From: Branchiostoma lanceolatum
Lineage: Eukaryota > Chordata > Leptocardii > Amphioxiformes > Branchiostomatidae
NCBI RefSeq assembly: GCF_035083965.1
Contig: NC_089729.1
Coordinates: 1,123,501 to 1,187,500 of the forward strand
DNA: 64,000 bases
Direction of reading: 5' to 3'
Below the pieces are notes generated by a model. The model ran no database searches and had not been told where the DNA came from. It worked only from the letters and a program-made list of their open reading frames with translations. How positions within the stretch are numbered: the first letter of the stretch is position 1; every line of letters starts with the position of its first letter. Made by a program: the position numbers and the translations under genes. Below, piece after piece: positions 10,611 through 40,749 of this stretch.

Positions 10611-10619
10611 CAGAAAAGT

Positions 10620-10920: not shown

Positions 10921-11056
10921 TTCTTTTCTAGGACACTTTTGTCCGACCGACAAGCCAGATTTAGCTTTGCCTCTTTTGCCGCCTTTCTGCTGCACTGTCC
11001 CTCCACAGGATAGCAGGACAGGCACTTAACTGTGCACGAAAACGCCGCCGTCATCG

Positions 11057-13062
11057 CTAGTACCGTCCCTGCGGTGCCATCATTGGTGGCCTCATCCCCG
11101 GGGGCATGCCCGGACCCCCTGGCCCCTGGAAGGGCATGTTGGGGGGGCCTCTCGGGGGGCCGCCGAACGGCATCCCCCCTGGCCCCATGGCCATCCCCTG
11201 CGGTGGTGGCCCGCCCATCCCTCCTGTAGGACACCGGGAAGGGGAACACAGAGAAACAGAGAGAGAGACAAGGGTTAGGGAACGTTCCATGGGATGTAAC
11301 GAGGTTAAGACACGCTGCGTGGCCGTTTCTTACCTTTGGAAGCAGTGCCGAGGACTGCAGACCACAAAATAAGCAGTAAAAAAGTCAACAATTATGAGCG
11401 TGCGTGTGAAGGTATCATCTAACACTGATCACTTCAAATTTGGGTAAACAATGGCACAAAATCTCGTATAAAAGTTGAAATAGAAAAAAAACAAGGGTGC
11501 TCATAGCAGCTAATTGATACAGAATATCTACATTTCATTTCATTTCATTTTATTTATACAGGGCAAATACGACTCAGGCAAGCACCATACTTTCAAAAAC
11601 TCCTTCAATATCTAGTTTATCAGTCTATCTTGCAAGGGTTACATATACTTTCAAATACAGTATATTGCCTAAAGATAATCAAATTTAACGAAATTGTAGT
11701 GTCTATCCAAATCTGGAATGACCAGGGTTCAACATGTGTTTGTTATAGCTGATGTGGCATGCACTTTCTATCAGTTGCGATACATCCTGTTTTGTGAGTT
11801 GTGTATGACTTCTGCAGGAAATCCTACCTTCCGACCTACCTTTCTCAAATCATAATCTTCAAGCATCCACTTTTGAATGTTAATATCAAACTCAAGGACA
11901 GTGTTTGATTATTCTAATAACGCTACAAGCTGGCAAAGTACAAACTTGACGACCGAGCCACTATTGCTGTTCTGGGGTTAGACCTCAAAAGGACTGAATC
12001 AAACAGTCTTCAGCAAGACGCCACATTTGCTGTTGTGTTTACCATACTCCGGAATCAAACTTAAGGTATCCAAAGGATATCATTCATAGCCTGGTGCAAA
12101 TTTGTGTGAGGTCGCACAGAACAGCAAGCGTTCAGCCAAGCAGATGCCCTGAACCACACACATTCTTTCCCATGCAGGGTAGTGCTATGGGTCCGGAGTT
12201 GGGCTGCGTACATAAACGTACCAACAGGTAACTGTGCTGAGGATTTCCAAAGTATTTTTACTTGTAAAAGGTAAAGGTAGTCCCATAGCCTTTTTCTAAG
12301 GCCGTAGAGGCAGTGGGTTGTTATCCACTGTGTCTATGGCACGGTATTGGAAGGGGCATTCCAACCCTTTCCTTCCACTGCCTTTAACCTCCCCAACCAA
12401 AGTGAGGTACCCATTTTTACACCTGGGTGGAGTGAGGAAAGTCGTGTAAAGTGCTTTTCCCAAGAGCACAACATCGGTGGCATGTCAGGGGAGTCAAACC
12501 CAGGACCTCTGGTGCAGGGCCAAACACCCTAACCATTATGCCAACACGACGCCACATTTTCTAACCAGTACGCAGCCCTGATCTACGGGGAGTGCACGGT
12601 ACACAAGACGCGAGTAGAAACAGTCCAAAGGCCGCATGCCATAATCGCTAGTCTGAAAGGTCCGGACCTGGTCAGTTAGTGGCGCTTGAACCCCACTGTT
12701 TCACAAGGTACACAGGCGGTGAGAGAAACCCTACCTGCAGACCTACCTTTGTGTGTGTGAACGGCGTGTGCGAGAGAGCGCTAGCCGGGGAAACGCTTAC
12801 CTGGGTGCCCCATGGGCGGCGGCATCGGAGGCCGCATGTTCGGCGGCATATTGCCGGGCGGCATCATGTTACCTCCGAAAGGCGGCCCGTGGCCCGGCGG
12901 GCCCATGCCGTGGCCGGGTGGCCCCATGGAGTGGGCCGAAACGGGCGGCGCAGCGTGCTGCTGGCCCATCTGTATCGGAGCGGAGGTCGAGGCCGGCGCG
13001 TGCACGGACACCGGCGGCATCTGGCGGTTGTACTTCGGCATCTGGGCTCTTCTCTCCTCCTG

Positions 13063-13108
<46 letters not shown>

Positions 13109-22100: not shown

Positions 22101-22350
22101 TGACTGATTCAACCTACTCGTGACTAAGACAATTTGCTTACGACATAATTTCAACAAGGAGGTTAAAATATTTTAACCTCCTTGATTTCAAGGAGTTTCC
22201 CAGTTTCTCCGTAAACGATATATTTCCTCCAACGCCGCCACACAAACAAAACCCTTTGTTACCCCCAACGTACGCAGGTACTTGAACGCTACGGCTCTGA
22301 AAAGGATACCAGCACCATGGCTTCATCTGCTTCTTCTTCTTCCGCCCCAT
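11057..22350 (-). CDS. ZNF207: BuGZ / ZNF207 orthologue (Bub3-interacting GLEBS and zinc-finger protein), complete
   Basis: Nine exons: 22350-22310, 20639-20513, 19249-19123, 18241-18074, 17126-16988, 15483-15270, 13938-13693, 13059-12801, 11223-11057. All junctions are GT-AG, phases join, and the total is 1488 nt (495 aa). The start [16 protein letters not shown] is the family N terminus. Two CCHH fingers follow: C13-C16-H29-H34 and C37-C40-H53-H58, the last histidine lying across an intron. Residues 59-100 keep the [13 protein letters not shown] and [15 protein letters not shown] blocks. The middle and tail are Pro/Met/Gly-rich, as in human BuGZ, where low complexity drives phase separation on spindle microtubules. 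[18 protein letters not shown] (about 343-360, across exons 7/8) matches the GLEBS motif that binds and stabilises Bub3. The expected role is kinetochore/spindle assembly. Introns carry many minisatellites, including decoy copies of the exon 5 acceptor. Confidence 0.95.
11224..12273. other. Last BuGZ intron, no gene seen
   Basis: AT-rich intron with a CATTTCATTTCATTTTATTT run near 11531 and no recognised coding sequence. Confidence 0.4.
12274..12556 (-). mobile_element. tRNA-derived SINE-like element in the last BuGZ intron
   Basis: Reading the minus strand, a tRNA-like head (TAATGGTTAGGGTGTTTGGC and GGGTTTGACTCC) is followed by the body GTGCTCTTGGG and then the complement of CACCTGGGTGGAGTGAGGAA. 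It is the same family as 2696-2905. Confidence 0.65.
13062..13110. repeat. (TCAA)n microsatellite abutting a BuGZ splice acceptor
   Basis: About 12 perfect TCAA units directly adjoin the exon 8 acceptor. On the gene strand the polypyrimidine tract is replaced by (GATT)n followed by GACAG. Length changes here could affect exon 8 inclusion, which carries half of the GLEBS motif. Confidence 0.9.
13300..13680 (-). mobile_element. tRNA-derived SINE, second family
   Basis: The minus-strand head contains AGTCCAGTGGTTAGTGGTCC and GAGTTCGACTCC. The body has AGAGCCAGGGAAG and ends near GAGCCAATCTGG. Another copy is 42110-42530 (-), and a body fragment lies at 15600-15665. Confidence 0.6.
14167..14945. 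mobile_element. DNA-transposon-like element of about 780 bp with ATAGACCGATCC termini
   Basis: Left end ATAGACCGATCCTGTCGAAC; right end GGGATCGGTCTATA. Sub-terminal CACCTCCGTCAAAAACAG and CTGTTTTTGACGGAGGTG are also inverted. The interior has no recognisable transposase. Partial gtgcacc-type repeat (14090-14165) abuts the left end. Confidence 0.65.
15090..15215. repeat. (CA)n-rich microsatellite
   Basis: Imperfect CA run interrupted by CCCCCC and CAGACAGA, lying just past the exon 6 donor of the BuGZ gene. Translated frames here are repeat artefacts. Confidence 0.85.
15806..16895. repeat. 37-bp minisatellite, about 29 copies, in BuGZ intron 5
   Basis: The unit GTTTACTACAGGAGTAGTAG plus TATCTATGATTTGCAGT repeats head to tail with a few substitutions (CTATTATT, CTGTTATT, ACATATTATT). 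There are no unique spacers between units, so this is not a CRISPR array. Confidence 0.95.
17127..17510 (-). repeat. Tandem decoy copies of the BuGZ exon 5 splice acceptor
   Basis: Six further copies of the junction TGACAG|GAATGCC lie upstream on the gene strand, with exon-like starts at 17190, 17257, 17318, 17385, 17441 and 17498; the true exon starts at 17126. Units are 56-67 bp. Many carry a TGCTAAC branch-site-like motif, a (GTT)n tract, the AG, and about 30 nt of exon-like sequence that then reads into a TAA. Confidence 0.85.
17625..18066. repeat. Degenerate short tandem repeat (GTGACTGAAAGTGAGA type)
   Basis: Irregular 10-16-bp units of GAGAGTGACTGAAAG fill the interval up to the exon 4 donor of the BuGZ gene. 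The seven-residue-like translated patterns are artefacts. Confidence 0.85.
18650..18745. mobile_element. Fragments of two MITE families
   Basis: 18650-18726 holds one arm of the TACTGTAAATG family (GCAAACTTAAAAC, then ACTTAAATACATTTACAG). It is followed by GCATCACCCTCGGTC, part of the 903-1013 palindrome family. Confidence 0.5.
19297..19691. mobile_element. MITE with TAGAGCTGTGTACC terminal inverted repeats
   Basis: The left end reads TAGAGCTGTGTACCTA and the right end GGTACACAGCTCTA. The interior repeats TTTAGGTACAGGTAC motifs. A degenerate end recurs near 32196. Confidence 0.7.
20064..20457. mobile_element. MITE with CAGGGCTCGAAAT termini, probable 6-bp target duplication
   Basis: It starts CAGGGCTCGAAAT and ends ATTTCGAGCCCTG, with ACATGA on both outer flanks. 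The interior has TGTGCACCTAATTTTTGACT and GTGCACCAGTGCACCT. Full or degenerate copies lie at 28385-28737 and 31646-32060; fragments at 14090-14165, 37020-37135 and 44083-44122. Confidence 0.8.
20741..21029. mobile_element. Long foldback MITE with arms of about 125 bp
   Basis: CTTCCAACACTAAGGTATTC on the left mirrors GAATACCTTAGTGTTGGAAG on the right. The inner arms pair through TGACCAATCACTGCCGAACG and its complement, and on to GTGACTTTATTGACA. Confidence 0.85.
21108..21360 (+). mobile_element. tRNA-derived SINE
   Basis: A-box-like GGCGTAATGGTTGGGTGATT and B-box-like GGGTTTGAAACCC head, then GTGCCCTTGAGAAAGACACT. The tail is of the GCACGTAAAAGAACCCACCA type, which recurs at 48805, 50980 and (inverted) 42960. 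Confidence 0.75.
21517..21535 (+). repeat. Poly(G) tract, 19 G
   Basis: An uninterrupted run of 19 G in BuGZ intron 1. It could form a G-quadruplex on the plus strand, or could be an assembly weak spot. Confidence 0.9.
21824..21929. repeat. Near-perfect hairpin with arms of about 48 bp
   Basis: TAGCCGTGGCGACTAACGAA, continuing through AGGGAGTTTTTGCTTGATAT, is mirrored exactly after a loop of about 5 nt (AAGGG). It lies in BuGZ intron 1. Such near identity suggests a young foldback insertion; a small-RNA precursor is possible. Confidence 0.9.
22155..22184. repeat. Perfect 30-nt palindrome
   Basis: CAAGGAGGTTAAAAT reads into its own reverse complement with no loop, about 125 bp downstream of BuGZ exon 1 on the gene strand. 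Confidence 0.85.
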
Positions 22351-22769
22351 GACTGTACCTAGATGTGACTAATAATTTCTGCGAAGAATGCGGTAAAAAC
22401 GAGCTGGAGAATCTTCCTTTTCTCTCCCACGCAGCCAAGATGGCGGTCACACAACACCTGGCAATGCCCGGATGTTCAACTTTGACTTCCCGATAACACG
22501 CAAACGTAATCTAGTCATACTAAGATAATTTGCTCCCAACTTATCATCAACAACATATGTACATGATTCCTATACATAAAAATATTTTATTATTATTTAA
22601 TATGAAAATTATGTGTTTAGTGGAGGAAATTGTTACGTAATTTCCAGTGATTCTGATTTATCTTCTTACATTTTGCTGCAGTCGGTGTGTGCCCTGTGAT
22701 CCTGAGTGAACCTTTGATCTATTTTGTGTTGTTCGATAATCGATATTAGTCAGGCTAAAGTTTCCTGTG
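22351..22769. promoter_or_regulatory. Putative bidirectional promoter between BuGZ and the docking adaptor gene
   Basis: The BuGZ ATG (minus, 22350) and the first candidate adaptor exon (plus, 22770) are about 420 bp apart and point away from each other. No TATA box stands out. GCCAAGATGGCGG at 22433-22445 is a good YY1-type element, typical of housekeeping promoters. Transcription starts were not determined. Confidence 0.5.
22433..22445 (+). promoter_or_regulatory. YY1-like site
   Basis: GCCAAGATGGCGG contains the AAGATGGCGG core of YY1 elements. It lies 83 bp upstream of the BuGZ start codon. Confidence 0.45.
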
Positions 22770-22822: not shown

Positions 22823-24028
22823 GTAAAAGCGCTCATAAATACTTAGCTGTCAATACACAAGTAGTTGTGCTACGCCTAGAGTATGTGGTCGTCATCAGAA
22901 AGATGAAATCAGGGCTCGGCAGAAAGTCCAGGATGTCACTTTGAGGTGGGTTTATACAGCATTAACATTGAAATTTTAAAGTAAACCTAGGAGGTGATAT
23001 TAGATTCGACTCTACAAGGCACATTTTTTGAAGGTCAGGGATTTTTGTTGCATGGTTGTTTCGTCACTGGCTCTTGAAATTGACCTACATTCTTGCCATT
23101 TGAAACAACTTGCCATGTGCATTACGTTAAACTTATAGAGCGTCTTAAATTTGTTTGTCTAGAATTGAAAACTCAAGACATAAAGTTGTATGACTTCCAT
23201 AGACTCCAAGCAATTTCTGATTTCTTAGTTATTTCTTAATTGTTTTTTATATATGAATTGACTACTACACTGAGTTGAGTAACTCACCGTGTCATGTGTT
23301 GTATAAAAAATGTTATAATTCATAGGTTAAACATTTGCTAAGTGCTTAATATATCAATCCTGAGTGGGAGGGTAACTTCAACACTGCACTGCGTTACCCA
23401 GCAACTTTACACCTTGCGGTCAGCCTGTGCACATACCACTATCAATACTAGTACTATTACTATCAATAGTACTTATAGATCTGGCATCAAGTTATCATTG
23501 AATCACTGCCGCAAAATGTCAGCCCAGGATATAACGTGCTAGTTGGAAACAGTCATCAATACATGTGACAAGTTTTAGTGTAAGTGGGTATGTTATTTCC
23601 TATTGTCCTGTAGCTATTGGGAGTCCTTTGGGTATTTTTCATTATATATATATATAATATAATGATTATGGCTTTCAAAACTGTCAGCAAACTCTGCAAT
23701 TCAGGGTGCATTTTCCCCTGCCAATGTACGTTTGCGCTCGGTGGTAATAATAAAGTACACTTATCAATAGTGTTATCAAAGATCAAGACAATAGAACTTA
23801 TAATTTTACAACATTTAGCTATGTAGAGTTCTTTCCTATTGTTGAGCTGACCTTGGAAAATTTGTCATATTCATAATACGTCGGCGTAACATACCAGCTG
23901 AAGTGTATAGATCTGTATTCAAAGATAGAAATAACTAAAAACAAAGTTCTGTGTTTAATTATTCATAATGGATCTGTTATATTCCCTATTGTTTTATACC
24001 TTCTGTGGAAATATGTATCCCAAAGAAT

Positions 24029-25081
24029 GTCAAGTTTAACCCGAAGAGTGTCAAGTTTAACCTGAAGAGTGTCAACATTAACGCAAAGAGTGTCAAGTTT
24101 AACCCAAAGAGTGTCAAGTTTAACCCAAAGAGTGTCAAGTCTAACCCAAAGAGTGTCAAGTTTAACCCAAAGAGTGTCAAGTCTAACGCAAAGAGTGTCA
24201 AGTTTAACCCAAAGAGTGTCAAGTCTAACCCAAAGAGTGTCAAGTCTAACCCAAAGAGTGTCAAGTCTAACCCAAAGAGTGTCAAGTTTAACCTGAAGAG
24301 TGTCAAGTCTAACCCAAAGAGTGTCAAGTTTAACCCAAAGAGTGTACATGTCAAGTCTAACCCAAAGAGTGTCAAGTCTAACCCAAAGAGTGTCAAGTTT
24401 AACCCAAAGAGTGTCAAGTTTAACCCAAAGAGTGTCAAGTCTAACCCAAAGAGTGTCAAGTCTAACCCAAAGAGTGTCAAGTTTAACCTGAAGAGTGTCA
24501 AGTTTAACCCAAAGAGTGTCAAGTCTAACCCAAAGAGTGTCACGTTTAACCCAAAGAGTGTCAAGTCTAACTCTAACCCAAAGAGTGTCAAGTTTAACCC
24601 AAAGAGTGTCAAGTCTAACCCAAAGAGTGTCAAGTTTAACCCAAAGAGTGTCAAGTTTAACCTGAATAGTGTCAAGTTTAATGCAAAGAGTGTCAAGTTT
24701 AACCCAAAGAGTGTCAAGTCTAACCCAAAGAGTGTACATGTCAAGTCTAACCCAAAGAGTGTCAAGTCTAACCCAAAGAGTGTCAAGTTTAACCCAAAGA
24801 GTGTCAAGTTTAACCCAAAGAGTGTCAAGTCTAACCCAAAGAGTGTCAAGTTTAACCCAAAGAGTGTCAAGTCTAACTCTAACCCAAAGAGTGTCAAGTT
24901 TAACCCAAAGAGTGTCAAGTCTAACCCAAAGAGTGTCAAGTTTAACCCAAAGAGTGTCAAGTTTAACCTGAATAGTGTCAAGTTTAATGCGAAGAGTGTC
25001 AAGTTTAACCCAAAGAGTGTCAAGTCTAACCCAAAGAGTGTCAAGTCTAACCCAAAGAGTGTCAAGTTTAACCCAAAGAGG
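24029..25081. repeat. 21-bp minisatellite, about 50 copies, with higher-order structure
   Basis: The unit GAGTGTCAAGTCTAACCCAA plus A alternates TCTAA and TTTAA variants. Because 21 is a multiple of three and the unit lacks stops in several frames, long open frames (up to 411 codons) run through it on both strands. Rare variants recur together (TGTACATGTCAAG near 24344 and 24734; GAATAGTGTC near 24664 and 24970), showing block duplication. It lies in the first adaptor intron and is not called a gene. Confidence 0.95.
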
Positions 25082-26431: not shown

Positions 26432-29400
26432 ATGGAAAGTAACATGGCCACAGTCATCAAGGAAGGACCGTTGTGTCTCCTGGACGTAAAGGACCAAGGA
26501 TTTAAGAAGACTAAGGTAACAAGTCTGTCAATCAATATATCCATGTGATATATAGGAGTTTTCAATGCTAATACATGTATTAAGTATCACTGATATAACA
26601 CCAATACTGAAGCTTGTTCCACTTGTCACTGTTGTTATATTGCATTGTCTGTGTACATTTTGCAAAATACTGTTAGTGTTACGTGTAACAATTGGGCAAG
26701 AAATTGCAAATAATGTGTGTATGTCTTGTAACCAGGTAGCAAGTAGTTGATTGATTGACCAATTAATTGATTGATGAATTGATGAACAGATAATTTTGGG
26801 CAAGGAGGACAACATCAGTGCACAATACCAAAAAAATGAATGTTCATTAAGTATTGCTGTCAGATCTTTAGTCTGAAAGTTCATAGATTCTGTGTTGGTA
26901 GTTAGTACTAGTAGTTTACACCTAAGTATACAGTTGACTGATTGCTGACGTCACAACCTGTCTCTAAGGTTACTTGACCTTTTTGATTGGTCCCTTGAAT
27001 TCTCAAGATTTCAAGGTGGAGCATCAACAGTTTTTGTGACAGCAGGGGCATCCTCGGTAGATCGCTTTAAGCAACGCTAAATGTAACTATATATTATATA
27101 CTAGTATGAACACGGTGTGACAGGTCGTTCAGTGTGATATAACCAGTGGAAGAGCGATTTTATCGGCTTTATGTGTAGATACAGAAACAAATGAAGAAGA
27201 CTGCAGTAGAACGGTTGAAAATTGCTTAGTTAAAAATACTTGTAGTCTTAAAACAAAGTTTGAGCTCTGCTCTGTACTGTTACTGTTCAGTAATTCTTGT
27301 TTCTTTCACTGTTCACTGTTTTTACGGTCACCTCTGCACCAGGAAAAAAACCTGTTATGATTCCTTCACACATCCATTCTGTAAATCTCTTGGCGCCGTT
27401 GTGAAGTTGAAGTTCAGTGAAAATGTCCATTTTCCTTTCATTGTGAAATTTTGCTGCAGTGAATTACTGGAACAGTATATATTAAACTTTTGTTTGCTCC
27501 ACTGGTTCACTTAGATTCAATTAGAGCGTTCAAAAACATCCTGGGTCAAAGTCTACCATCGAGTATATATCAAAAGGAATAGAAAAGGGGAGGGAGGTTA
27601 ACGTTCGGGCATGGATTTTGACATAAAAGATGGATTGTTAAACCACTGCACAAGGCACACTGTTACATACAGATGTATTTTCAGTTATAGAAAAAAAAAG
27701 AATTCATAAAGTGCTCGCAGTAGAGACTTCTACATGTATATTCTTCAAGCAGAGGTTTCAGTTGGGGGGCTACTACTAAGTAATGGTGGTTATTTTTTTC
27801 GTCTGCAGCTGGGGGGAGGTAGATGGAAAAAATCAGTCATTACCTTGTACTAGAAGTAGCCCCCCAACTGAAACCTCTGCTTGAAGAATTATGGTTCTAT
27901 TACATCAAGTACATAGTCTGTTATGCCACAGTCACCAATTTGAATTTAATGTTTTGTTTCTTGAATAAAAAAAAAGATAACTCTGTAATAATTTATAAGG
28001 TCTGTGCCTTTGTTTTCACAATCTCAAGAAGTGAATATAGTGAGATGCACTTAAGCATATACTGTTGAGTGTACATTCTTCTTTTATTACAGCCGAGTTG
28101 AGACTATGCTATGTGTTGCCTGAAGTAACCCCATGATCAGAATGTTGTTTGAACACCGCGATTTGTGTGCATGTGTTGGTGCTAGAAATATCTGTGTCTC
28201 TAAGTTGCATCAACAAGGTTGTAGCCAGCTGACTCACGATAGCCATTGAGGTTTTATCATGTGATAACGTTATCTGATTATCTCTAACATTATCAGTTTA
28301 TTTCCAGTTTTGTTAGTTTGGCTGTGGAAGATAAACAGTCCTGGGCTGTCCACAGTTATACACTGTAGCTCATGGATATATTCAGGACTCTAAATACTGG
28401 GAGCATGTACACCTACTTTTTGACTGTGGGTTCACCAGTTCACCTAGATATATTTTGTAGGCTATAGGGTACAGGTATAGTACACAAGTATATAGAATAT
28501 TCTTGAAATTTAAGTATCAGAAAAAGTAATGTTACCTTTGTTGTACTTTGTTTGATGTAATAAACACTTTTTAAGTTAGCGATAGAAATGAGAGGCAGTA
28601 GGGTTTTGTTCATTCAAGGAGGTTAATTGGTTCATTGTTGTGCACCCAAAATTATTTCAGAATCTGTGCACCTAAATTTTTAGGTTTAAGGTGCACCAGT
28701 GCACCTATTCACAAAAATGAATTTCAAGCCTTGGTATTACCAGGATAGTCCTGCTGACAACACAATACAGCATGTGGTGTTAAGATTTTAACACGACCAA
28801 TTTAACCAGTATGTATGCATATCATGCAATTGTATAATATATAGCTATAGGAGTGGTGTTTATGTGTACAGAGTATGGTCCCTTTTATTATTAGAAGGTG
28901 ACAATAAAAGTGCTATACTGTATGTGTACCGTAGTACCGGAATGTACACATTAGTTATGTATAGACTAACCGGTCACACACATTCAGTAGTAAAGGAGCC
29001 CTTGTCTATAATATACAGATAGCTTGGAGCGCCCCTGGGGGTACATTCCCTACATTCTCTAAAGCATCGTGTTTGTCTGTTTATACAGTTACGTAGATAT
29101 GACTGAAGTCTTTTCCTGATAAAGGCTTGAGTGTGCTTGAAACAAACAATTTAACACATTCCTTTGTAACATGGGTTTTGAGTTTTGTCACAGTTGAATT
29201 TATTCATAGAATCAAGCGGAATAACTAAGCTATAATCTCTAACTTTTAAGTTACACAATCATGAAGTAATTTGTGGTAAATTTAACTTGAAAATTGAAAC
29301 TAAATAGACAATATTTGAACCCAAGAACCAACGAGCTTACTTGGTGTAGCCTAGCATTATGCATTTAGCTGAGTCTGATGAGTCTGAGCAAAGAAGATCT

Positions 29401-32400
29401 AGAAGAGAAGATTTGTGCTTGTGATTTTATAAGTTGGCTGATTTGTCTTTTAATTTCACTTTTCAGTACTGGGTCGTTCTGTCCACCACTCCACAGGAAC
29501 ATGGTGAGGACAGATCAATTCATTTACTTGTTAAGCACAGTTTAATTATAATAAAATGTACTATATGGTATGTTAAAAGGGTATGTGGGTCCTGTATATG
29601 TACAGGTTGGGGTATCTTTTAGCCAAACGCGCCACACCGCAGCGAAACGCACCGAATGCGGATTTCAAAGAAACTATGCCAGTCAGCCACACAAAAGTCA
29701 AGGGCTGATGACCTGGTCAGCAACTAAAATCAATGAAACCTATTGCATAAAAAACACCAGCAGGACATTGGTTAACAACAAACAGAATGTTAACCAATGT
29801 CCTGCTGGTGTTTTTTATGCAATAGGTTTCATTGATTTTAGTTGCTGACCAGGTCATTGATTATATGGATGACATCCGCGCGCACATCAATTTTCGTTCA
29901 TTTCCAAAAACCTGTTGATTTGATTATATGAAAGACATCCACTCGCACATCAATTTTCGTTCATTTCCAAAAACAAAAAAAGTTTTCTACCATACTGTAA
30001 ATTGTGCAAAGCAGCTACAAAATGAGCAGATATATGTACTTAGTATATGCCGTAAAAGATATTTTGTAAAGCAGAACTAATGTCTAGAATGCCAAACTCA
30101 AGGAGAAATTTGTGAAAGACCAAAATTGAAGAATCCATTATTTGGTATACTATCCTCGGTGTGTTAAGTCATTTGTTCAATCTTCCTGACCATGTAGATT
30201 TCATAAGGAAGGCAACTTTTTTCTTTTAAACTTTTTTTGTATTCGATGGCACGCTCACATCAGTTTTGGGGTTCCCATAGGATGTCATCCATATAATCAA
30301 ATCGACATTGCCTCAAATAAAATTCCTTTTCCCTCCAGTCTACCTCCTGCACCTGTACTACTACAGCAAGTCCCCGCGGGAGCCGTGGCGGCTGTTTCGC
30401 CTGGAGCGCGACACGTTCAGCGGTTCGGAATGCGGCTTGCTGAACCAGCGCGTGAACAGCCCAGAGGAGAGGTACTGGGCACTGGTGCTGTCCAGCGGCA
30501 CCCTCCTGTTCCAGGTTAGTAACCCTTGTTGCAGGGTGCTAATATATAGGTCAAGCATGACTTAAGGCCGTGGCAGAAAGCACTAATGCTGGAAAGATAA
30601 TTGGTTCAAGCCTTGGTCCAAGGCATGGCTGAGGGACTGGTATTTGGACAGCCATAATCGCCATGAAATTACCATGGCAGTGTGCACTAACCAAGCATTA
30701 GTGCTGCATATGTATTTCTGGCATTAATGATACATTAGACAACAGTTTGGCAAGGGTACTGTTGGTGTAACGACCAGGGTGTTTGGTCCTGGGTTCAAAT
30801 CCCTTGATTTTTTTTTTCTTTCAATTTGAAGAAAACAACTTTATTCATTAAAAAAAAACAGACAAATCCTTGATATGTCACCGATGTTGTGCCATTGGGA
30901 CAGGCACTTTACAGGACTTTCCTCATCACCCCACCCAGTTCTGTATGACTGTGCCTGACTTCGGTTGGGGCGGTAAAAGGCTCTGCCTTCCAATACCATG
31001 TGACCGGTGCAATGGCCTAATTGGTAGAGTGTTCGCCTTGCATACGGTAGGTCGTGAGTTCGAACCCCGGCCGGGTCATACCAAAGACTCTAAAAATGGT
31101 ACATACTTCTTTCTCTGCTTAGCGCTCAGCATTTGGGAAAGAGTATGGAAGTTAAACACACACATCACTACCAGCGGACCAGCCCCCTGCTGTAGTGGCT
31201 TGCACTTGTGTGGCCCAAGGGCTTCGAATGGGAGATGGGCGCCCCCCTACGCATCTTCGATGCATGGGACCACTTTAACTTTAACTTTTCCAATACCATG
31301 CCCTTTCACACGGTGGATAACAACCAACTGCCTATACAGCCTCAAAAAGGCGTTGGGACTACATTTACCTAGAAAAAAAGTTCCTTCCCACACAGATGGT
31401 GCATAGGGTGGCACCCATCTCCGTTTCAATAGCCCTTGGGCCACACAATTTTGTGGGATCACTACAGTGGGGGGCTAGTCTGCTGGAAGTGGTGTATGTG
31501 TAACTGCCATGCTCTTTCCAAATGCTAAGCAGACAAAGGAGTTTGTACCTAGTCTTTGGTATGACTCGGCCCAGGATTGAACTCACGGCCTACTGTATAC
31601 AAGGCGAACACTGCCCACTAGGCTATTGCATACATTTACCTTCCTATAGGGCTCGAAATAGTGGGTGCATGTGCACCTGTGTGCACCCAAAATTGTAGCT
31701 GTGCACCTTAATTTTTTACTGTGGGTGCACTGCTGCACCTAGATATTTTTGTACTCTCTCTCTATATAATTATATAGATATAGGGTAATGGTTCTCTTGT
31801 ACCCTAGCATACAGAATACTCTTGAAATGTATCAGAAAAAGCAATAAAACCTTTTTTGCACTTAATTGGATGTATTGCTTGGTTGAAATTTGAAATCTGG
31901 ATAGAAGTACAGATTGAAGTTCTTAAGAGGCAGTAGTGTCAAACTTATGTTTTGTTGACATTCAACTTGATCTTATGTGGTCCACCCAAACGTTTTTCTG
32001 TGCATCTAATTTTTTTGGTTGGGTGCACCTTTTTCCCAAAAAGAATTCCAAGCCCTGTTTTTGCCTCTCACTACTCCAGGAAGCACGGGGAAACTGGAGA
32101 AGATTCGAAGATTCCAACAGCGTGGAGATATGGGACAACAAAGTCAGGGAGTGTATGAGGGATCGTGAGTATCTTCTTCATGTCCTAAATAACTTAGAGC
32201 TGCATACCTAAACTAATGTTCAGGTTCAGGTCCGGACTTATAAGACCTGAACCCATGGCGTATGGAAAATTCCATGTTGACATAAAGTTGACTTACAATT
32301 TGAAAAAGAAACAATCTACCCTCTTTTCCCCAGGCGGCCGGTGGATGTGTCGGTCGGTCGTCTCCCCTGACCCGACGCTACCCGAGGAGTTCGTCGTCAA

Positions 32401-35400
32401 TCTGACGGAGGTTTGTTTTATTTCTTTGCTCCTTTGTTTATTCATGATGACCTCAGATAGGCCTGCAGGCCGCTTTTCATTGAAGTCATAAGGGAAGAGG
32501 TAATGTTCAGATAAAATATAACGGCTAACCGACATCTATCGCACCGCATGTAGTCATCCCTCAGTAAGACATCTGGAGCTGCATAGTTCTTATTCAGAAC
32601 TTCTATTCAGCCTGTGAATGGCCCGTGTCTAGATCTGTTTCTTTAGGTCTCACTGGGTTTTAACTCCTTGTTGGTGAACATATACATGCAAAATTATACA
32701 CAGTCAGTAGTAAAGGCAAATGCTCAGTAATAAACACAAGTTATTTGTCTTTTCTATGGCACAAATTTCAGGATCTATGGAAGGTTTTAGATGGTTAAGA
32801 ACAAAAAGGAGAATATCAGTGATAGTTTTTTGCAAGCACAGACTTAGTCTTAGACTTAGCACCCGACGTTGACCCAGGTTTTTTGGGACTTGAACCTAGA
32901 CATTTCTACAAATCCAGTTAAGGTGTAGATTTAGGTAATCCGTATGCAGCATTGTCCTTAGGATACTTGGAGTTTCTTTTAACACAACCAGGTAATCTCA
33001 CTTGCTGAAGTTTCAGTGTCTGTCAGACACCTTCTTCAGAGCTTCTGACTGGAGTACTGCTTCTCGCCGCTATAAGTAGCTGATGTAGGTGGCCATTTTA
33101 TAGGGGCGAGAAGCAGTACTCCAGTCAGAAGCTCTGAAGAAGGTGTCTGACAGACACCGAAACGTCAGCAGGTGAGATTACCTGGTTATGCTAGAAGAAA
33201 CTCCAAATATCCTATGTTCTACCAACCTGATGAAATTATTTTCGGAAGCATTGTCATTTTCCATTTGTTTAGGTCTCGCTGGGCTTCAACTCCCTGATGG
33301 CCAACAACCAGTCTGCCCAGAGCCACGGCCTGTGGGACCTCGCACACGTGGAGATCAACGATCCCGAGTACCAGAATGTCTCTCAGCAGGACGGACAGTT
33401 CTTAAAGCTCGCCATCGGACAGCCAGGAAAAAGGAAGGGTAATGTTTGTTTGTTTATTTATTTCATCTCAATACAACAGCACCAAGGACAGGTATGTTTG
33501 TGTGTGGATAGTGTTCAGCACCAAGGACAGGTTTGTGTGTGTGGATGGTGTTCAGCACCAAGGACAGGTATGTTTGTGTGTGGATGGTGTTCAGCACCAA
33601 GGACAGATATGGTTATGAGTGGATAGTGTTCAGCACCAGGGACAGGTATGTTTGTGTGTGGATGGTGTTAAGCACCAGGGACAGGTGTGTTTGTGAGTGG
33701 ATAGTGTTCAGCACCAAGGACAGGTATGGTTATGAGTGGATAGTGTTCAGCACCAGGGACAGGTTTGTGTGTGTGGGTGGTGTTCAGCACCAAGGACAGG
33801 TATGTTTGTGAGTGGATAGTGCTCAGCACCAAGGACAGGTATGTTTGTGTGTGGATGGTGTTCAGCACCAGGGACAGGTGTGTGAGTGGATAGTGTTCAT
33901 CACCAAGGACAGGTTTGTGTGTGTGGATAGTGTTCAGCACCAGGGACAGGTTTGTGTGTGTGTGGGTGGTGTTCAGCACCAATTACTGGTTTGTGTGTAT
34001 GTGGATGGTGTTCAGCGCCAGGGACATGTTTGTGTGTGTGTGGATGGTGTTCAGCACCAAGGACAGGTATGTGTGTATGTGGATGGTGTTCAGCGCCAAG
34101 GACAGGTTTGTGTGTGTGGATAGTGTTCAGCACCAAGGACTGGTTTGTGTGTGTGTGGATAGTGCTCAGCACCAAGGACAGGTATGTGTGTGTGTGGAAA
34201 GTGTTCAGCACCAAGGACTGGTTTGTGTGTATGTGGATGGTGTTCAGCGCCAAGGACAGGTTTGTGTGTGTGGATAGTGTTCAGCACCAAGGACAGGTTT
34301 GTGTGTGTGTGGATAGTGTTCAGCACCAAGGACAGGTATGTGTGTGTGTGGATAGTGTTGAGCATTACAACATCCCTATCACCCAAAGCGAAATGATTGT
34401 AGTTAGGAAATTGGTGTAAAAAAAGTGCCTTTCCTATGAGCATACTATTGGGGGCCTGCTAGAGATGCAAACCCAGTCCATTGACCTTATCCAACACAAC
34501 CTGTGGTGAAAGACTAATGTTTTCTGTTGTTGTTTGTTGGCAGGTGTTTATATCTTGAAGCTGCCCCCACGGGCCAGGTTGGAGTTGGTGACAAAGATGA
34601 AAACCTTTCAGTCCCGGCTCGGACCCCCCACACCCCCCAGGCCTGGAGCAGAGAATGTTCAGTCCCGGCCTCTTCCTATAATCCCTCCCCCCATTGCGCC
34701 ACGGCCCCCCACCCACTTATCGCCTGGGTCATCCCCACACACCCAACCAACCCACCCGGCACCAAGAGTCTCCCCACGCACCCAACCATCACCTAAAACT
34801 TCCACACACACACAACCCACCCACCCTTTCCCTGGAACTTCACCACACACACAACCCACACACCCGTCACCTAGAACCTCCCCACATTCACAACCCACCC
34901 ACACATTGCCTGGAGCCTCCTCGCACACCCAAGCCTTGAATGCAGGCAGCCAGACTTCAGAAAATTCCCGGTCCCCTTCACCGATGCATCAAGCCCTCAC
35001 ACCGCCCTTCCAAAGAGTGGGACTAGCATCCAACCCGCCGTCTTCATCGGGAAGATGTCCTGCCCCACCGTCACCCACCAGGAAAACTCCACCGCGTCTT
35101 CCGACACCCGGGCCTCATTCAAAACACTTCCACAGACCTGCAGGAGAAGAGAAAAGACCCCTGCCCTCCCCGCCCAACGGAGCGCCGTCCCCCGACGAAC
35201 ACACGTACCTGCAGTTGGAGAAACAAAGTTGCCCCATTCCCGATACAGGGGGCCCGCCTCCTGTTCCTTATCACCGTTCAGAGTCCCAAACAAGCGACAG
35301 ACGGCGAGTTCTGCCAAGGACGCCCTCTCCCACACAAGAAGACAAATCGGTGAGGCCAAGAAGAAGCACAGATCCCGGGGTTCCTTCCACGTTGGCGCCG

Positions 35401-38400
35401 GTGGAAACATCCTTTCCTGTTGCACGAACCCCCAACATTGTTGTGGGTATGTTTCTCATTGCCTGTCATAGATTTAAGTGTTAGAACAGAAGGCAAGAAA
35501 CATATCATCATTGTGAAAGGTATTGCTGAGTTTATGGGCCTTTAATATACAATAATTGTGTAATTTTTCATGACATCAGGCCCTATCAAGATAAAGTCAA
35601 ACCTGAAGTGACCACCTCTACGTAAGGCCAATTTGACCACTTTTTGGTGGTCTGTTAGATGATTTTTCCAATTGAGTCATTGGAGGAGTAAGAACCCTGT
35701 CTATAGTGACCACCTGTCCACATGGGTCATGCTTCTCTGGGTGGTCTTCTTGGGCAGGTTTGACTGTAATTCAGATTTGGACCAACAAAGGAACAAAATC
35801 AACTAGTAAGGAATGACTTTTTTTTAAGAGGTACAAATCTTTAAGCTTGGAAAATTTAAATTGAACTTGTTCAAATCTTCTGATGCCGTGTGATAAAGCA
35901 TTATCCATGTGATTAGAAATTTGAATCTTAATGTTTTTTGCCTCCTAGATGAGTTCAAAGACACTGTTGCTGCTGCGGGAAACGATGCCAACAAACAAAA
36001 CAGGTCGACAACGCCAGACAAGCCGCTCCTTCCCAAAAAGAAAGTGCAGTGGCGGAAGGAAGATCTAGAGAGAAGATACAAAAACATTCCTGACAGTTAT
36101 ACGCAGAGCGAGCACTGCACACATTCTGTGACAATAAGTAGCGAATCCACCGATGACGATATGCAGTATTACAGCGTAGTTCCTGCGGAAAAAGACAGCG
36201 GAGCTCACAAAAACTCGCATGTGTCGAGTGCGCAGCGGTCCAGTGACAGACATGTTTACATGAACACACCGCCGGCACATGTTGGTGACAGAAGTAGAGT
36301 CTATATGAAGTGTATGTCCACTGACAATCACACCACGGAGGATGCCGAGAGACTTATGGTGGCTGCGAATGTGAAAAGGTCCGGGTCCATGCCACTTCTG
36401 ACTGACCTGCCACACCCTGCATCGATTCCGTACTACAACGTTCCAGGTACAGCCTTTCCTTTCATCTGTGAATAACTTCGTCGGATCGGAAGCTCAATGG
36501 ATAATGCTAGGGTCACATTTCCATACCGGGACCCAGCTGGGCTGTTTGCGGGAACGTAAAATAAAAACTCATATCAAGAAATATACACAGATCGTGCTTA
36601 TGCAAATATTCTAGCCCCCCATTGATAGAGAACTGATTGACATGCTGGTATAAAAGCATTATATTAAACATCCTGGATCGAGTAATGTATATTATGATAA
36701 AACCATTTTTCTGATGTTTACCATGCTACCATGCTATCCCTTCAGTCCACTCAAACCCTTGTGTGCACCGCTGGACTGCCTTGATTTGCAATTACCAACT
36801 TACCTGACTTGTTTGGTTAAAGTTTTGATAAGAACTTGCCGACTTGGTTCCAGATCTGAAGGCCGAACCATTTTACCAGAATCCAAACCTGAAAGGTCAA
36901 AAGGGCAGCAGATGCCCCCCTCCCCCATCAGTGGCTCCAGGAGATAGTCAGAAGAAACCTGTACCTGCCCCAAGACGAACTGCAAGCAAGTAAGACATTC
37001 ACAATAAATCGCATTTTGCTAGCATTCTACTTTATTTTATGTTGTGCACCCAAGACACTTTTTGTGCACCTAGATTTTTAGTTAAGGTGCACCAGTGCTC
37101 CTATTCCCCAAAATGAATTTCAAGCCCTGGTAAGGAGTGGATATGAGAAATAGTAATACATGTATGTAGAAGTAGCTATTACCATTAGAACATACATTCA
37201 GAATCTGTAATTGTTCAATTTTGTTGTTGTTGATGACTTGTTTATAGGCAAGAGCTGCATTCAGTTGAATACTATGAGGAGCATCCCATGCACCCTTGCA
37301 AGGAAGAGCAGAACCAAGACGGCCAAAAGAAAGATGTAAGTAAATTTGGAGATATTGTTGGTATTCATTCTACATGTAAAGTATTACTTGTTTTTAAAAT
37401 GTTCTTGTATAACCCACTGCCCTAACAGTCTAAAAAGGCTATGGGACTACCTTTACCTTTTTTTTTACCAGATAATAAGTGTGATAATGTACTGTGACAA
37501 TATGTTGTGATAATATGTTGTGATAATGTGTTGTGATAATGTGTTGTGATAATGTGTTGTGATAATGTGTTGTGATAATGTGTTGTGATAATGTGTTGTG
37601 ATAATGTGTTGTGATAATGTGTTGTGATAATGTGTTGTGATAATGTGTTGTGATAATGTGTTGTGATAATGTGTTGTCACAGTGATAATGTGTTGTGATA
37701 ATGTATGATGTAAACACTCCTGCCCAGATGATGAGTGTGATAATGTGTTGTGATAATGAGTTGTGATTATGACTGTGATAATGTGTTGTGATAATGTATG
37801 ATGTGAACACTCCTGCCCAGATCATGAGTGTGATAATGTGTTATGATAATGTGTTGTCACAGTGATAATGTGTTGTGATAATGTATGATGTGAACACTCC
37901 TGCCCAGATCATGAGTGTGATAATGTGTTGTGATAATATGTTGTCACAGTGATAATGTGTTGTGATAATGTATGATGTGAACACTCCTGCCCAGATCATG
38001 AGTGTGATAATGGACCGCAGTCTGGAGGAGGACAGCCTGGGCCTGCCCAAGGAGAAGTGGGAGAAGCTGCTGCTGCTTCTCTGCTTTCCCAGCCCGCTGC
38101 AGAACGACTGGAGGGTGTTGGCATCCAAACTAGGTGAGATTCCCCTTGATTTTGTGTCATCGGGCTAGTAATGCTTCGGTCCCAATGTGTGTGGTGCCCG
38201 TTTGGGGTGTAGTCCGCAGAACGACTGGAGGGTGGTGGCATCTAAACTAGGTGAGATTCGCCTTGAATCTGTTTCATCAGGCTAGCAACGCCTTGGTCCA
38301 AGGCATGGCTGCTAGGACATTAAGGGACTGGTATTTGATCAGCCATAATTTCCATGAAATTACCATGGCAGCGTGCACTAACCAAGCATTAGTGCTGCAT

Positions 38401-40749
38401 ATGTATTTCTGGCATTAATGCTACATAAGACCATAGTTTTGCAAGGGTAACGCTTCGGTCCCAATTGTGTGGTGCCCGTTTGGGGTGTAGTCCTGGCCAG
38501 CCCCAAAGCCACAAATTTGTCCCGGTGGACTGCCGGGTACCGGGGAGTACCTCCCGGTGTTCGCATGATTAGCTTAATGCGTCTATTTGTTACCGGGTCC
38601 CGCATTGATTGTAAGTCCGAGTTAAAATGATTCGGGGTCCTGGCCGGGCTCAAAAATAGCGAGGCAGCCGCAGGGTGTCCCACGTCACCATCCTAAATGA
38701 CGAATATGCAATCCCTTACAACATGTCCGAGCTGGAGTCGACCCCTAGGATCGAACTCGGGCCCTAGGATCCACGGAATTCGATCCAGATGTCAAAGCAG
38801 CGGGGTTGTGTTTCCGCTTGCGCCAAGGGGACATAATTACAGAAAACTGTGCAAGTTGGAGCCAATCTTTTATCTTCTTATTTCGCCTCAGATCTAACCA
38901 ATGTCGACGTGATGTTGCTGGAGAGTGTGCGGGAGAACTACAAGGAGCTGCCGGCACGATACGTCTTCAAGTACGTTGTTTTCTTACAAATCTATAGGAT
39001 GCTTCGTTGAACGGGCTTGTTCAATGTATAGGATGCTTCGTTGAACGGGCTTGTTCAATGCAACACCATAGTTGACCTCTTTTTGGCGAAGCTGATGAAA
39101 GATGAAGATGACCTGAGAAACAGCAGTGAACATTCAATTTGGTTTTGAAGGCTTTCAGGTTGTATACATTCTACGGGAGGGATTCTTTCCTTTTTTTAAC
39201 GGGTTTGTTCAATGCAAGGCCACAGTTGACCTCTTCTGGGCACTTAACTAAGCTGATGGAAGATGAAGATGATTATATATGCAGAGAGACAGTGCTCAAC
39301 ATTCAATGGTCGTATACATTGTATGGGAGTGATTCTTTCCTTTTTTGAAGGGTCTGTTGAATACCAGGCCATACATGTAGTTGACCTCTTCTAGTCATTG
39401 AACTAAGTTGCTGGAAGATGATTATGCTGGGAGACAAACTTTCACTCAAATAGTCACACTCACATTTTCACATACATAGATATTGTTAAGCAACAATAAT
39501 ATATATCTAATGTTACGTATTGTATATAACAACACTTAACATTTGTGACTGTATTCTCAGTGACACCTGCAAGCTACAGTGCAAAATGAACAAGTCATTA
39601 TTAATAATTGCCCCAAAGAAGCTGACAGATGGTCTTTGAAATGTTCAAGCTGTTATATCACTCATTGTTTGTGAAAAAAGAACATAATAATTGTTATTCA
39701 GTACCTTTATCTTTCTACATATTCAGGTACTTTACATTTGGAATCACATCATCTCACCATTGTTGCTTAACAGTATCTATTAATGTAACAATACTTTACG
39801 TTTGGGACTGCATTGTCAGCAGTAACACCTACAGTAGCTTCAGTGCACTGTGAACTAGTCAGTATTGCCCTGATGAAGATGACAGAAGGTCATCGAAACG
39901 TCGGCTCTTGTAAATACTTGGTTGTGAATAAAAGAACCTTGCTATTCAGTCATTCACCAACCCGATGAAATTATTCAGGGAAGAACTTTCTTATTCAGTA
40001 CCTTTACCTTTCTACATCGCCAGGTACTGGCAGAGACACGGCCCCTCCCCTACATGCGTAATCGAAACTGAATTATTTCAGCTCCAACTCGTCGGTTGTG
40101 AAAAAACGAACTTTGTTATTGGGTACTAGCAGAGACACGGGCCCCTCTCCTACACGCGTCATCGACACTTCTAAGCTGTTAAACCACTCATCGGTGGTGA
40201 AAAAGGAACTTTGTTATTGAGCACCTTTACCTTTGTGCATCTGCAGGTACTGGCAGAGACACGGGCCCCTCTCCTACACGCGTCATCGACACTTCTAAGC
40301 TGTTATACCACTCATCGGTGGTGAAAAAGGAACTTTGTTATTGAGCACCTTTACCTTTGTGCATCTGCAGGTACTGGCAGAGACACGGGCCCCTCTCCTA
40401 CACGCGTCATCGACACTTCTAAGCTGTTAAACCACTCATCGGTGGTTAAAAAGGAACTTTGTTATTGAGCACCTTTACCTTTGTGCATCTGCAGGTACTG
40501 GCAGAGACACGGGCCCCTCCCCTACACGTCATTGACACTTCTAAGCTGTTAAACCACTCATCGGTGGTTAAAAAGGAACTTTGTTATTGAGCACCTTTAC
40601 CTTTCTACATCTCCAGGTACTGGCAGAGACACGGGCCCCTCCCCTACACCAGGCAGGAGGTTCAGAGAGTCCTGATCGAACTGGAGAGACTGGAACTGGC
40701 AGGGATGTTCGACGACTACTGCACTCTACCCATAAAACCTGTGTCCTAA
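26432..40749 (+). CDS. DOK-like docking adaptor with PH, IRS/DOK-type PTB-like, multi-YxN tail and C-terminal death domain
   Basis: Exons: 26432-26515, 29467-29503, 30339-30514, 32080-32164, 32334-32410, 33273-33438, 34544-35446, 35949-36446, 36854-36989, 37248-37335, 37995-38133, 38892-38970, 40617-40749. All are GT-AG with matching phases; 2601 nt, 866 aa. Residues 10-127 resemble the DOK PH domain (EGPLCLL, GFKKTKYWVVL). Residues 140-232 resemble an IRS-type PTB domain (FVVNLTEVSLGF, GLWDLAHVEIND, FLKLAIG, helix RARLELVTKMKTF). Residues 235-500 are Pro/His/Ser-rich with PxxP runs. The tail has YxN (Grb2 SH2-type) motifs at Y553, Y613, Y671 and Y683, plus YYSVV. Residues 770-855 form a death domain (NDWRVLASKL, VDVMLLE, KYWQRHG, LIELERLELAGMFDDY). 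Expected to act under the membrane, linking tyrosine kinases to death-fold partners; this role is inference. No close named orthologue was recognised. Confidence 0.88.
27743..27890. mobile_element. Foldback MITE with arms of about 38 bp
   Basis: ATTCTTCAAGCAGAGGTTTC and AGTTGGGGGGCTACT on the left are mirrored by AGTAGCCCCCCAACT and GAAACCTCTGCTTGAAGAAT on the right. The termini match those of 57138-57465. Confidence 0.8.
28385..28737. mobile_element. Degenerate MITE of the CAGGGCTCGAAAT family
   Basis: It shares TTTTTGACTGTGGGT, ATTTTGTAGGCTATAGGGTA and the right part GTGCACCAGTGCACCTATTC with 20064-20457. The ends are eroded. Confidence 0.6.
29707..29855. repeat. Near-perfect long hairpin, arms of about 65 bp
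   Basis: GACCTGGTCAGCAACTAAAA through GGACATTGGTTAAC is mirrored after a loop of about 15 nt. Arm identity looks complete, implying a recent foldback insertion, or an active hairpin RNA if transcribed from the adaptor intron that holds it. Confidence 0.9.
30570..30745. repeat. Dispersed repeat, second copy at 38283-38445
   Basis: Both copies share CCTTGGTCCAAGGCATGGCT, GAAATTACCATGGCAG, GTGCACTAACCAAGCATTAG and TGCTGCATATGTATTTCTGG. They sit in two different introns of the adaptor gene, each shortly after an exon. A whole-block duplication is possible. Confidence 0.75.
30745..31010 (+). mobile_element. SINE split by a short poly(T)/poly(A) insertion
   Basis: The tRNA-like head ends GGGTTCAAATCCCTTGAT and the body resumes at ATGTCACCGATGTTGTGCC. 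Between them is a roughly 80-bp T- and A-rich insert flanked by CAAATCC(C)TTGAT on both sides, a likely target-site duplication. Confidence 0.6.
31005..31280 (+). mobile_element. tRNA-Ala-like SINE, forward copy
   Basis: The head GGCCTAATTGGTAGAGTGTT, CGCCTTGCATACGG and GAGTTCGAACCCCGG resembles tRNA-Ala(TGC). The body runs through GGGAAAGAGTATGGAAGTTA to TGGCCCAAGGGCTTCGAATG. An inverted partner lies at 31370-31622 and a fragment at 45535-45680. Confidence 0.7.
31370..31622 (-). mobile_element. tRNA-Ala-like SINE, inverted copy
   Basis: On the plus strand it reads body first (GTTCCTTCCCACACAGATGG, CCCATCTCCGTTTCAATAGC) and head last (GGATTGAACTCACGGCC, ACAAGGCGAACACT). It faces the copy at 31005-31280, so an intron transcript could fold across the pair. 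Confidence 0.7.
31646..32060. mobile_element. MITE of the CAGGGCTCGAAAT family abutting adaptor exon 4
   Basis: It starts AGGGCTCGAAATAG and ends CAAGCCCTG, only about 20 bp before the exon that begins at 32080. The exon's polypyrimidine tract therefore starts right at the element's edge. Confidence 0.7.
32639..32690 (+). pseudogene. Degenerate duplicate of the start of adaptor exon 6
   Basis: TTTAGGTCTCACTGGGTTTT and AACTCCTTGTTGGTGAACA closely match the true acceptor and exon start at 33270-33310 (TTTAGGTCTCGCTGGGCTTC, AACTCCCTGATGGCCAACA). The frame would start VSLGFNSL and then diverge, and there is no matching donor. It looks like a decayed exon copy. Confidence 0.6.
32955..33215. mobile_element. 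Foldback MITE with GAAACGTC motif
   Basis: AACCAGGTAATCTCAC, TGTCTGTCAGACACCTTCTT and GACTGGAGTACTGCTTCTCG on the left are mirrored on the right, ending GGTGAGATTACCTGGTTA. It lies about 60 bp before exon 33273. Confidence 0.8.
33478..34362 (+). repeat. 39-42-bp minisatellite with splice-site-like units, about 22 copies
   Basis: The unit is AGCACCAAGGACAGGTATGT plus TTGTGTGTGGATAGTGTTC. Many units place TTCAG, a 12-nt CACCAAGGACAG segment and a GTATGT donor-like sequence in order, i.e. a consensus-looking micro-exon. It fills most of the intron between exons 33438 and 34544. Long translated frames are artefacts. Confidence 0.9.
34735..34930 (+). repeat. Coding minisatellite in the proline-rich region of the adaptor
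   Basis: Within exon 34544-35446, degenerate units encode SPHTQPTHP-type peptides about five times, with PSPRT or PFPGT linkers. The copy number is probably polymorphic. It lies between the PTB-like domain and the phosphotyrosine tail. Confidence 0.8.
35585..35772. mobile_element. Foldback repeat, relative at 57475-57650
   Basis: GTCAAACCTGAAGTGACCAC on the left is mirrored by GGTGGTCTTCTTGGGCAGGTTTGAC-type sequence on the right. 57475-57650 shares GTGGACAGGTGGTCACTACA and GGTGGTCCTTATG. Confidence 0.65.
37478..37994 (+). repeat. TGATAATGTGTTG microsatellite with three decoy copies of the exon 11 acceptor
   Basis: 13-bp units grade into 87-93-bp units, each with ACTCCTGCCCAG followed by ATCATGAGTGTGATAATG (ATGATG in the first). 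Exon-like starts are at 37728, 37821 and 37908; the true exon starts at 37995. The exon's own first 18 nt appear to be the seed of the array. Confidence 0.85.
38211..38290 (+). pseudogene. Partial duplicate of the 3' end of adaptor exon 11
   Basis: CCGCAGAACGACTGGAGGGT, GGTGGCATCTAAACTAG and the donor GTGAGATT copy the true exon end at 38096-38140. The copy keeps an AG before AACGAC and a GT donor, and would encode NDWRVVASKL. The downstream intron sequence is copied too. Confidence 0.75.
38283..38445. repeat. Second copy of the dispersed repeat at 30570-30745
   Basis: Shares the CCTTGGTCCAAGGCATGGCT to TTTCTGGCATTAATG block, with few differences. Confidence 0.7.
38990..39420. repeat. Tandem repeats in adaptor intron 12
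   Basis: GATGCTTCGTTGAACGGGCT plus TGTTCAATG occurs twice back to back. A unit of about 175 bp containing GTTGACCTCTT, GATGAAGATGA and GGGATTCTTTCCTTTTTT then repeats about 2.5 times. Confidence 0.75.
40011..40616 (+). repeat. Five tandem decoy copies of the final adaptor exon start
   Basis: Units of about 100-124 bp each carry CTTTACCTTTGTGCATCTGC plus AG, then GTACTGGCAGAGACACGGGC. Exon-like starts are at 40024, 40123 (AG lost), 40247, 40371 and 40495; the real exon starts at 40617. Used as terminal exons, copies 3 and 4 would read YWQRHGPLSYTRHRHF and stop, truncating the death domain. Confidence 0.9.

Follow-up and report, generated by a model that had tools for sequence, protein, structure and literature searches.

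Docking proteins of the DOK (DOK1-7), IRS and FRS2/3 families have a long proline- and tyrosine-rich tail with SH2-type motifs, preceded in DOK and IRS by an N-terminal PH domain; both features recur in the gene described here. The adaptor BCAP (PIK3AP1) carries an innate-immunity assembly domain: according to passages of PMC5241739, its TIR domain associates with TLR2/4 and MAL/TIRAP, and the protein is also linked with MyD88 and SARM, while passages of PMC6937578 give p85, NCK, GRB2 and CRKL as its interaction partners. Chimeric DED-PTB/SH2 adaptors have been engineered to redirect tyrosine-kinase signals to apoptosis (Howard et al. 2003, as cited in a passage of PMC2575513). Passages of the same source describe domain combinations in lancelets that include TIR-NACHT, death-caspase, death-NACHT, DED-NACHT and TNFR-caspase, and state that some of the lancelet death-domain hybrids are supported by cDNA (PMC2575513). 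The Death count is printed, in a passage of PMC2246300, as 139 (136) for Branchiostoma floridae against 31 (29) for human. Here we analyse a gene of another lancelet, Branchiostoma lanceolatum, found on the + strand at 26432-40749 of a stretch of 64,000 nucleotides, the window (contig NC_089729.1, positions 1,123,501 to 1,187,500, assembly GCF_035083965.1), whose coordinates are used throughout. Its 13 exons join into one frame that would encode an N-terminal PH domain, a tail rich in proline and tyrosine, and a C-terminal death domain. Because these three parts are supported in one frame, we consider a docking protein that ends in a death domain to be a fair, partly supported reading of the predicted chain.

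The gene model

A first-pass annotation of this DNA had assembled 13 exons into a single frame of 866 residues, and our rebuilt model reproduced the coordinates, a GT-AG pair at every border and the phase. The joined exons amount to 2601 nucleotides, corresponding to 866 residues and a stop codon, with no earlier in-frame stop. Upstream of the start codon, the open frame of exon 1 continues as far as 26360. Splice sites were scored with a generic consensus and ranked among the 1093 GT and 914 AG dinucleotides of the region. Twenty of the 24 sites of the model fall in the top 5%; the acceptors of exons 9 and 11 and the donors of exons 5 and 8 lie outside it. The exons are as follows.

26432-26515, + strand: exon 1, start codon and residues 1-28, with the first PH strand (IKEGPLCLL) and the donor gtaaca
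29467-29503, + strand: exon 2, residues 29-41, PH; acceptor rank 10/914, donor rank 15/1093
30339-30514, + strand: exon 3, residues 41-99, PH; coding score above all 6,975 intron draws
32080-32164, + strand: exon 4, residues 100-128, end of the PH
32334-32410, + strand: exon 5, residues 128-153, where the region claimed as PTB begins; weak donor, rank 102/1093
33273-33438, + strand: exon 6, residues 154-209, region claimed as PTB
34544-35446, + strand: exon 7, residues 209-510, with the last part of the putative second domain and a proline-rich linker after it
35949-36446, + strand: exon 8, residues 510-676, carrying YKNI (Y553), YMNT (Y613) and YYNV (Y671) of the tyrosine tail; donor rank 73/1093
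36854-36989, + strand: exon 9, residues 676-721, with YQNP (Y683) and KPVPAPRR; acceptor rank 78/914, donor rank 18/1093
37248-37335, + strand: exon 10, residues 721-750, with a phase-0 end and a gtaagt donor, rank 17/1093
37995-38133, + strand: exon 11, residues 751-797, first part of the putative death domain; acceptor score -1.2, rank 169/914
38892-38970, + strand: exon 12, residues 797-823, middle of the putative death domain
40617-40749, + strand: exon 13, residues 823-866, with the stop codon and the final part of the putative death domain; acceptor rank 4/914

Codon preference was trained on the gene's other exons (exons 9 and 10 omitted) together with a neighbouring AKAP7-like reading frame, and the background consisted of random, overlapping draws from open intron stretches of at most 40 codons. 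Because the training set includes the gene itself, these scores are supportive and not independent. Exons 3, 5, 6 and 9-13 exceed every drawn stretch; for exons 9-13, the comparison covered 7,018 to 14,292 draws per exon, none of them as high. Exons 4 and 8 are each equalled by a fraction of 0.0115 of the intron stretches, and the scores are weaker for exon 2 (0.028), exon 1 (0.057) and exon 7 (0.124). Intron 6 holds a minisatellite of 39 base pairs (bp) in about 23 copies (33477-34364), and a separate 39-bp repeat runs in frame through a stretch of exon 7 rich in Pro, Thr and His (34779-34932).

PH domain, tyrosine-rich tail and death domain

The PH domain reported by the first-pass annotation is supported by similarity to small custom profiles, approximately at residues 7-105 of the chain. 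Of the member sequences of these profiles, a few pieces were verified against the PDB. A profile of eight mixed PH domains scores 13.9 bits over residues 7-105, one of DOK1-3 scores 7.4 bits over residues 7-72 (839 of its shuffles reached the score needed for listing), and one of DOK1-5 plus IRS1 scores 9.9 bits over residues 1-77; none of 1000 shuffles was as high in any of these comparisons. A semi-global test gave z = 4.7 (0/300 shuffles), against 11.6-22.3 for real PH domains left out one at a time, and the same profile was at chance elsewhere in the chain (144/300 shuffles for residues 110-240 and 98/300 for a piece of the tail). For single PH domains, the number of shuffles out of 1000 that scored as high was 3 for DOK1, 5 for DOK2, 11 for DOK3, 50 for pleckstrin, 98 for IRS1, 110 for STAP, 245 for AKT1 and 492 for GAB1. 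At E <= 10, a Pfam scan of the whole chain and of its pieces listed no PH and no IRS match, with filters that discard most weak matches, and a sequence comparison of the N-terminal part with the PDB gave no match at E <= 10.

Specificity for DOK is rejected for this domain, since five non-DOK PH domains combined into a profile score above DOK1-3 (10.2 versus 7.4 bits, the former with 0/1000 shuffles as high). Moreover, DOK1-3 plus IRS1 give only 2.8 bits (16/1000), and a DOK4/5 profile performs at chance on the N-terminus (389/1000). Aligned with residues 1-235, DOK1-3 reach an hhalign probability of 1.9, with 1/100 shuffles as high, and 3.1 bits in hmmsearch.

The region that follows had been read as an IRS-type PTB-like fold, and here the first-pass annotation does not stand. 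A HMMER profile of six PTB domains was equalled or bettered by 163/1000 shuffles and a DOK1-5 plus IRS1 profile by 254/1000; the semi-global test yielded z = 0.65, with 74/300 shuffles as good, against z = 11-27 for real DOK and IRS PTB domains left out one at a time. Residues 120-240 contain no RR pair, and therefore motifs of the LRRYG and GRRC types of DOK PTB domains are absent. A single-sequence fold prediction of the N-terminal part was unusable (mean predicted local distance difference test score, pLDDT, 37.0). Since three sequence tests fail to separate the region from shuffles, we reject a PTB domain as shown, and for the same reason neither membership in DOK nor direct binding to phosphorylated receptors is shown.

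These results bear on the possibility that the gene is a genuine relative of DOK/IRS, with a PTB domain that diverged past recognition and an added death domain. The order of PH, second small domain and proline- and tyrosine-rich tail is that of DOK, and the PH aligns from its first residue with the DOK1-5 plus IRS1 profile; a W, a G and a final helix can be placed by eye in PTB order, which is a reading and not evidence. Profiles that detect true PTB domains with ease nevertheless remain at shuffle level here, both arginine motifs are missing, and the PH is not specific to DOK. We therefore consider such a relationship somewhat unlikely. Of the DOK layout proposed earlier, the N-terminal PH and the tail are retained and the PTB is not; the layout appears DOK-like, and the chain may be better described as a combination of the "shortcut protein" kind than as a proven DOK.

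The tail (residues 236-750) contains 92 prolines and 13 tyrosines. Four of the tyrosines lie in YxN motifs, at exactly the positions reported by the first-pass annotation (Y553, Y613, Y671 and Y683). Shuffled tails contain 0.43 such motifs on average, and a fraction of 0.0003 of 3000 shuffles reach four. YxN is the motif preferred by the Grb2 SH2 domain when its tyrosine is phosphorylated. A fifth YxN, at Y186, belongs to the putative folded region and not to the tail. Within the tail, YxxP is not enriched (2 versus 2.30 expected) and YxxM does not occur.

At the C-terminus, residues 778-851 match the Pfam family Death (PF00531) with E = 3.4e-4 and 21.1 bits, covering profile positions 7-79 of 86, which is 1.5 bits short of the curated cut-off of 22.6. 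When the whole chain was scanned, Death was the sole family listed at E <= 10 (E = 0.011, 16.3 bits), and no other family reached E < 0.01 with the C-terminal piece. Shuffling that piece gave a Death match in 0/10 cases and one unrelated match at 0.018. A profile of seven death domains scores 11.8 bits (1/1000 shuffles as high); the best single matches are MyD88 (7.8 bits, 1/1000) and FADD (5.2 bits, 3/1000), followed by NGFR (11/1000), TNFR1 (21/1000) and IRAK4 (29/1000), with ANK1 (196/1000) and FAS (294/1000) at chance level. The death domain proposed earlier is thus supported by the Pfam E-value and by the profile, at a score below Pfam's own curated cut-off; a single-sequence model of low confidence shows six helices. 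Four PDB chains of Bmi-1 match the same part at E 0.023-0.095; we took these as chance.

Continuity of the chain and neighbouring features

Together with the failed PTB tests and the missed Pfam cut-off, a number of observations at exons 9 to 13 weigh against a single docking chain with a terminal death domain. They involve three features of the + strand.

36990-37008, + strand: candidate alternative 3' end, with TAA at 36991-36993 and AATAAA at 37003 if the donor of exon 9 is not used
37480-38012, + strand: minisatellite with units of 13, 26 and 87 bp; the unit bears the acceptor and the first codons of exon 11
40024-40649, + strand: repeat array with parts of the last exon (Tandem Repeats Finder: 4.3 copies of a 124-bp unit at 40122-40649, with one more copy at 40024)

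A single chain requires the splice between exons 10 and 11, and the exon 11 acceptor at 37995 is the weakest of the model's 12; the minisatellite copies at 37728, 37821 and 37908 carry an acceptor of equal score. Exon 11 opens with in-frame ATG codons at 37998 and 38010, which would permit a separate death-domain protein. If exon 9 is left unspliced, it runs immediately into TAA, with AATAAA 12 nucleotides further, where the protein could end short of the death domain. The span from exon 1 to exon 13 holds 13 AATAAA or ATTAAA hexamers, and four partial copies of exon 13 with an acceptor precede the modelled one (40024, 40247, 40371 and 40495), each leading to a stop that leaves out the last helices.

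Much of this would fit two products, namely a 721-residue PH docking protein ending after exon 9 and a separate small death-domain adaptor started from 37998 or 38010, with the whole Pfam Death match downstream of both ATGs. Stop and hexamer stand side by side directly after exon 9, and the acceptor needed to join exon 11 is itself part of a minisatellite unit. Under this arrangement, however, exon 10 would have no owner, although it scores as coding (0/11,795 intron stretches as high), and the donors of exons 9 and 10 rank high (18 and 17 of 1093). Exon 11 is moreover in phase with exon 10, both meeting in phase 0 so that the frame fits, and with 13 such hexamers in the span, one beside a read-through stop is not very unlikely. 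We consider two separate products unlikely. Left unspliced, exon 10 would reach a stop 29 codons on, and there is no AATAAA or ATTAAA between exons 10 and 11. Splicing of exon 10 to the upstream minisatellite copies was rejected, as in-frame stops follow within 15 codons.

Given the stop and AATAAA right after exon 9, a form of 721 residues that keeps the four YxN motifs and lacks the death domain is possible alongside the full chain. Another AATAAA lies at 40867, downstream of the last stop. As there are 13 hexamers of this kind in the gene span, neither the signal at 37003 nor that at 40867 is strong evidence.

The array at the last exon repeats the acceptor of the last intron together with the first codons of exon 13, except that the copy at 40123 has no AG. 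Its use could yield a main product with a truncated death domain, a decoy or dominant-negative form, because the four upstream acceptors score well (5.6-6.2), lie nearer to the donor than 40617 and lead to a stop before the last helices. The acceptor at 40617 nevertheless has the highest score of the set (7.5; rank 4/914), and only its frame runs on into the sequence of the last helices, which makes a truncated main product quite improbable. A further candidate exon in intron 11 (38220-38250) was discarded: it is a diverged copy of the last 31 nucleotides of exon 11 with its donor, and would break the frame. Tandem repeats thus copy the splice acceptors of two of the three death-domain exons, a hazard to be reckoned with in repeat-rich animal genomes.

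That the C-terminal domain is some other helical domain, called a death domain by chance, is very improbable: its case consists of the score under Pfam's curated cut-off and a poor single-sequence model (mean pLDDT 50.4) whose Foldseek search gave 48 matches, all above E = 0.001 and with no death domain among their descriptions, a null that says little because of the model's low confidence, whereas Death is the sole family at E < 0.01, covers nearly its whole profile, is lost in all ten shuffles and has a death-domain profile score that one shuffle in 1000 attains.

Elsewhere in the window, pieces of a gene or genes at 51254-57046 (+), which we take to be LENG9-like, encode RWD, CCCH zinc-finger, MJ1316 and AKAP7 2'5' RNA ligase-like domains (found in 3 of the 8 pieces scanned against Pfam). 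On the opposite strand, gene pieces at 11000-22400 (-) include a zinc-finger piece (20426-20683) that matches the PDB chain 6j0d_A, described as a transcription factor, at 1e-19; three pieces of this gene had no Pfam match, and it presumably resembles ZNF207/BuGZ. A 21-bp minisatellite of about 49 copies at 24019-25080 produces long spurious open frames on both strands.

Possible function and comparison with known systems

We tentatively favour a single gene for a cytoplasmic docking adaptor, about 866 residues long, that joins PH, YxN tail and death domain. While the reading frame and its splice borders are observed, as are the YxN enrichment and the two domain similarities, we infer the transcript, the phosphorylation, the partners and the direction of effect. 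In such an adaptor, the PH domain would bring the protein to membrane phosphoinositides or to an active receptor complex. Once phosphorylated, the four YxN sites of the tail could recruit an SH2 adaptor of the Grb2 type, and the PxxP and KPVPAPRR stretches could serve SH3 partners. The C-terminal death domain would bind another death domain, of the MyD88 or FADD class. Tyrosine-kinase signals might in this way be coupled to a death-fold complex, either by nucleating it at the membrane or by bringing in a kinase-regulated brake, the latter modelled on vertebrate BCAP with its TIR domain; by this analogy, a brake is as plausible as a death trigger. With an alternative 3' end after exon 9, the cell could regulate whether the death domain is included, and the form without it would perhaps compete with the long form.

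The more specific proposal is that this docking protein wires receptor tyrosine kinases straight to a death-fold complex, engages Grb2 and a MyD88- or FADD-class partner together, and has its death domain switched by the alternative 3' end; we regard it as possible but doubtful. The bridge suggested by the first-pass annotation is borne out in so far as PH, YxN tail and death domain share one frame, and is weakened by the failure of the PTB, by the poor acceptor of exon 11 and by the stop and AATAAA after exon 9.

We know of no DOK protein with a C-terminal death domain. Compared with the DOK, IRS and FRS2/3 proteins, the lancelet chain has no detectable IRS-type PTB and has a death domain at its C-terminus. 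MyD88, FADD and other death-domain adaptors share the death domain with it, MyD88 being the best of the seven compared, but MyD88 and FADD carry TIR or DED where the lancelet chain has PH and tail. BCAP and Dof (stumps) resemble it in combining an innate-immunity assembly domain, TIR in BCAP, with a phosphorylated region that recruits SH2 and SH3 partners, GRB2 included, as described in passages of PMC5241739 and PMC6937578 and, for the domains of Dof, of PMC7260276. They differ in their domains, which are TIR, DBB and ankyrin where the lancelet chain has PH and a death domain; none of those three was listed in the whole-chain Pfam scan at E <= 10. By analogy, BCAP would be the nearest vertebrate counterpart in working principle.

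A search for relatives in viral contigs yielded 34 matches to the pattern, none of them a relative, and a phage DNA search with 600 bases gave no match. In a lancelet, such a chain agrees with a known pattern, namely the Death count printed for B. floridae and the hybrid proteins with cDNA support. According to passages of PMC12373286, no domain is more over-represented than Death in the dispensable genes of lancelets, and such a gene may therefore be absent in many individuals.

The remark of the first-pass annotation that a bridge of this kind is not known from vertebrates applies to the chain and not to the idea. We found no report of a PH-type docking module and a death domain in one chain in the open-licence literature; the principle, on the other hand, is familiar from BCAP and from the DED-PTB/SH2 chimeras. 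In those chimeras a death-fold domain is joined to a tyrosine-kinase docking module, as here, but they are artificial and use DED with PTB or SH2 docking, whereas the lancelet chain would use a death domain with PH and a phosphorylatable tail. The lancelet "shortcut" proteins are alike in that a death-fold domain is fused to a domain kept separate in vertebrates, and differ in that none of those named in passages of PMC2575513 has a PH docking module. The domain combination thus appears to be new, while the kind of protein, a shortcut fusion, is already known. If the chain is real, it would offer a testable case of domain shuffling that rewired immunity and cell death in early chordates, and would be the natural counterpart of the synthetic shortcut that links tyrosine-kinase signals to death-fold assemblies.

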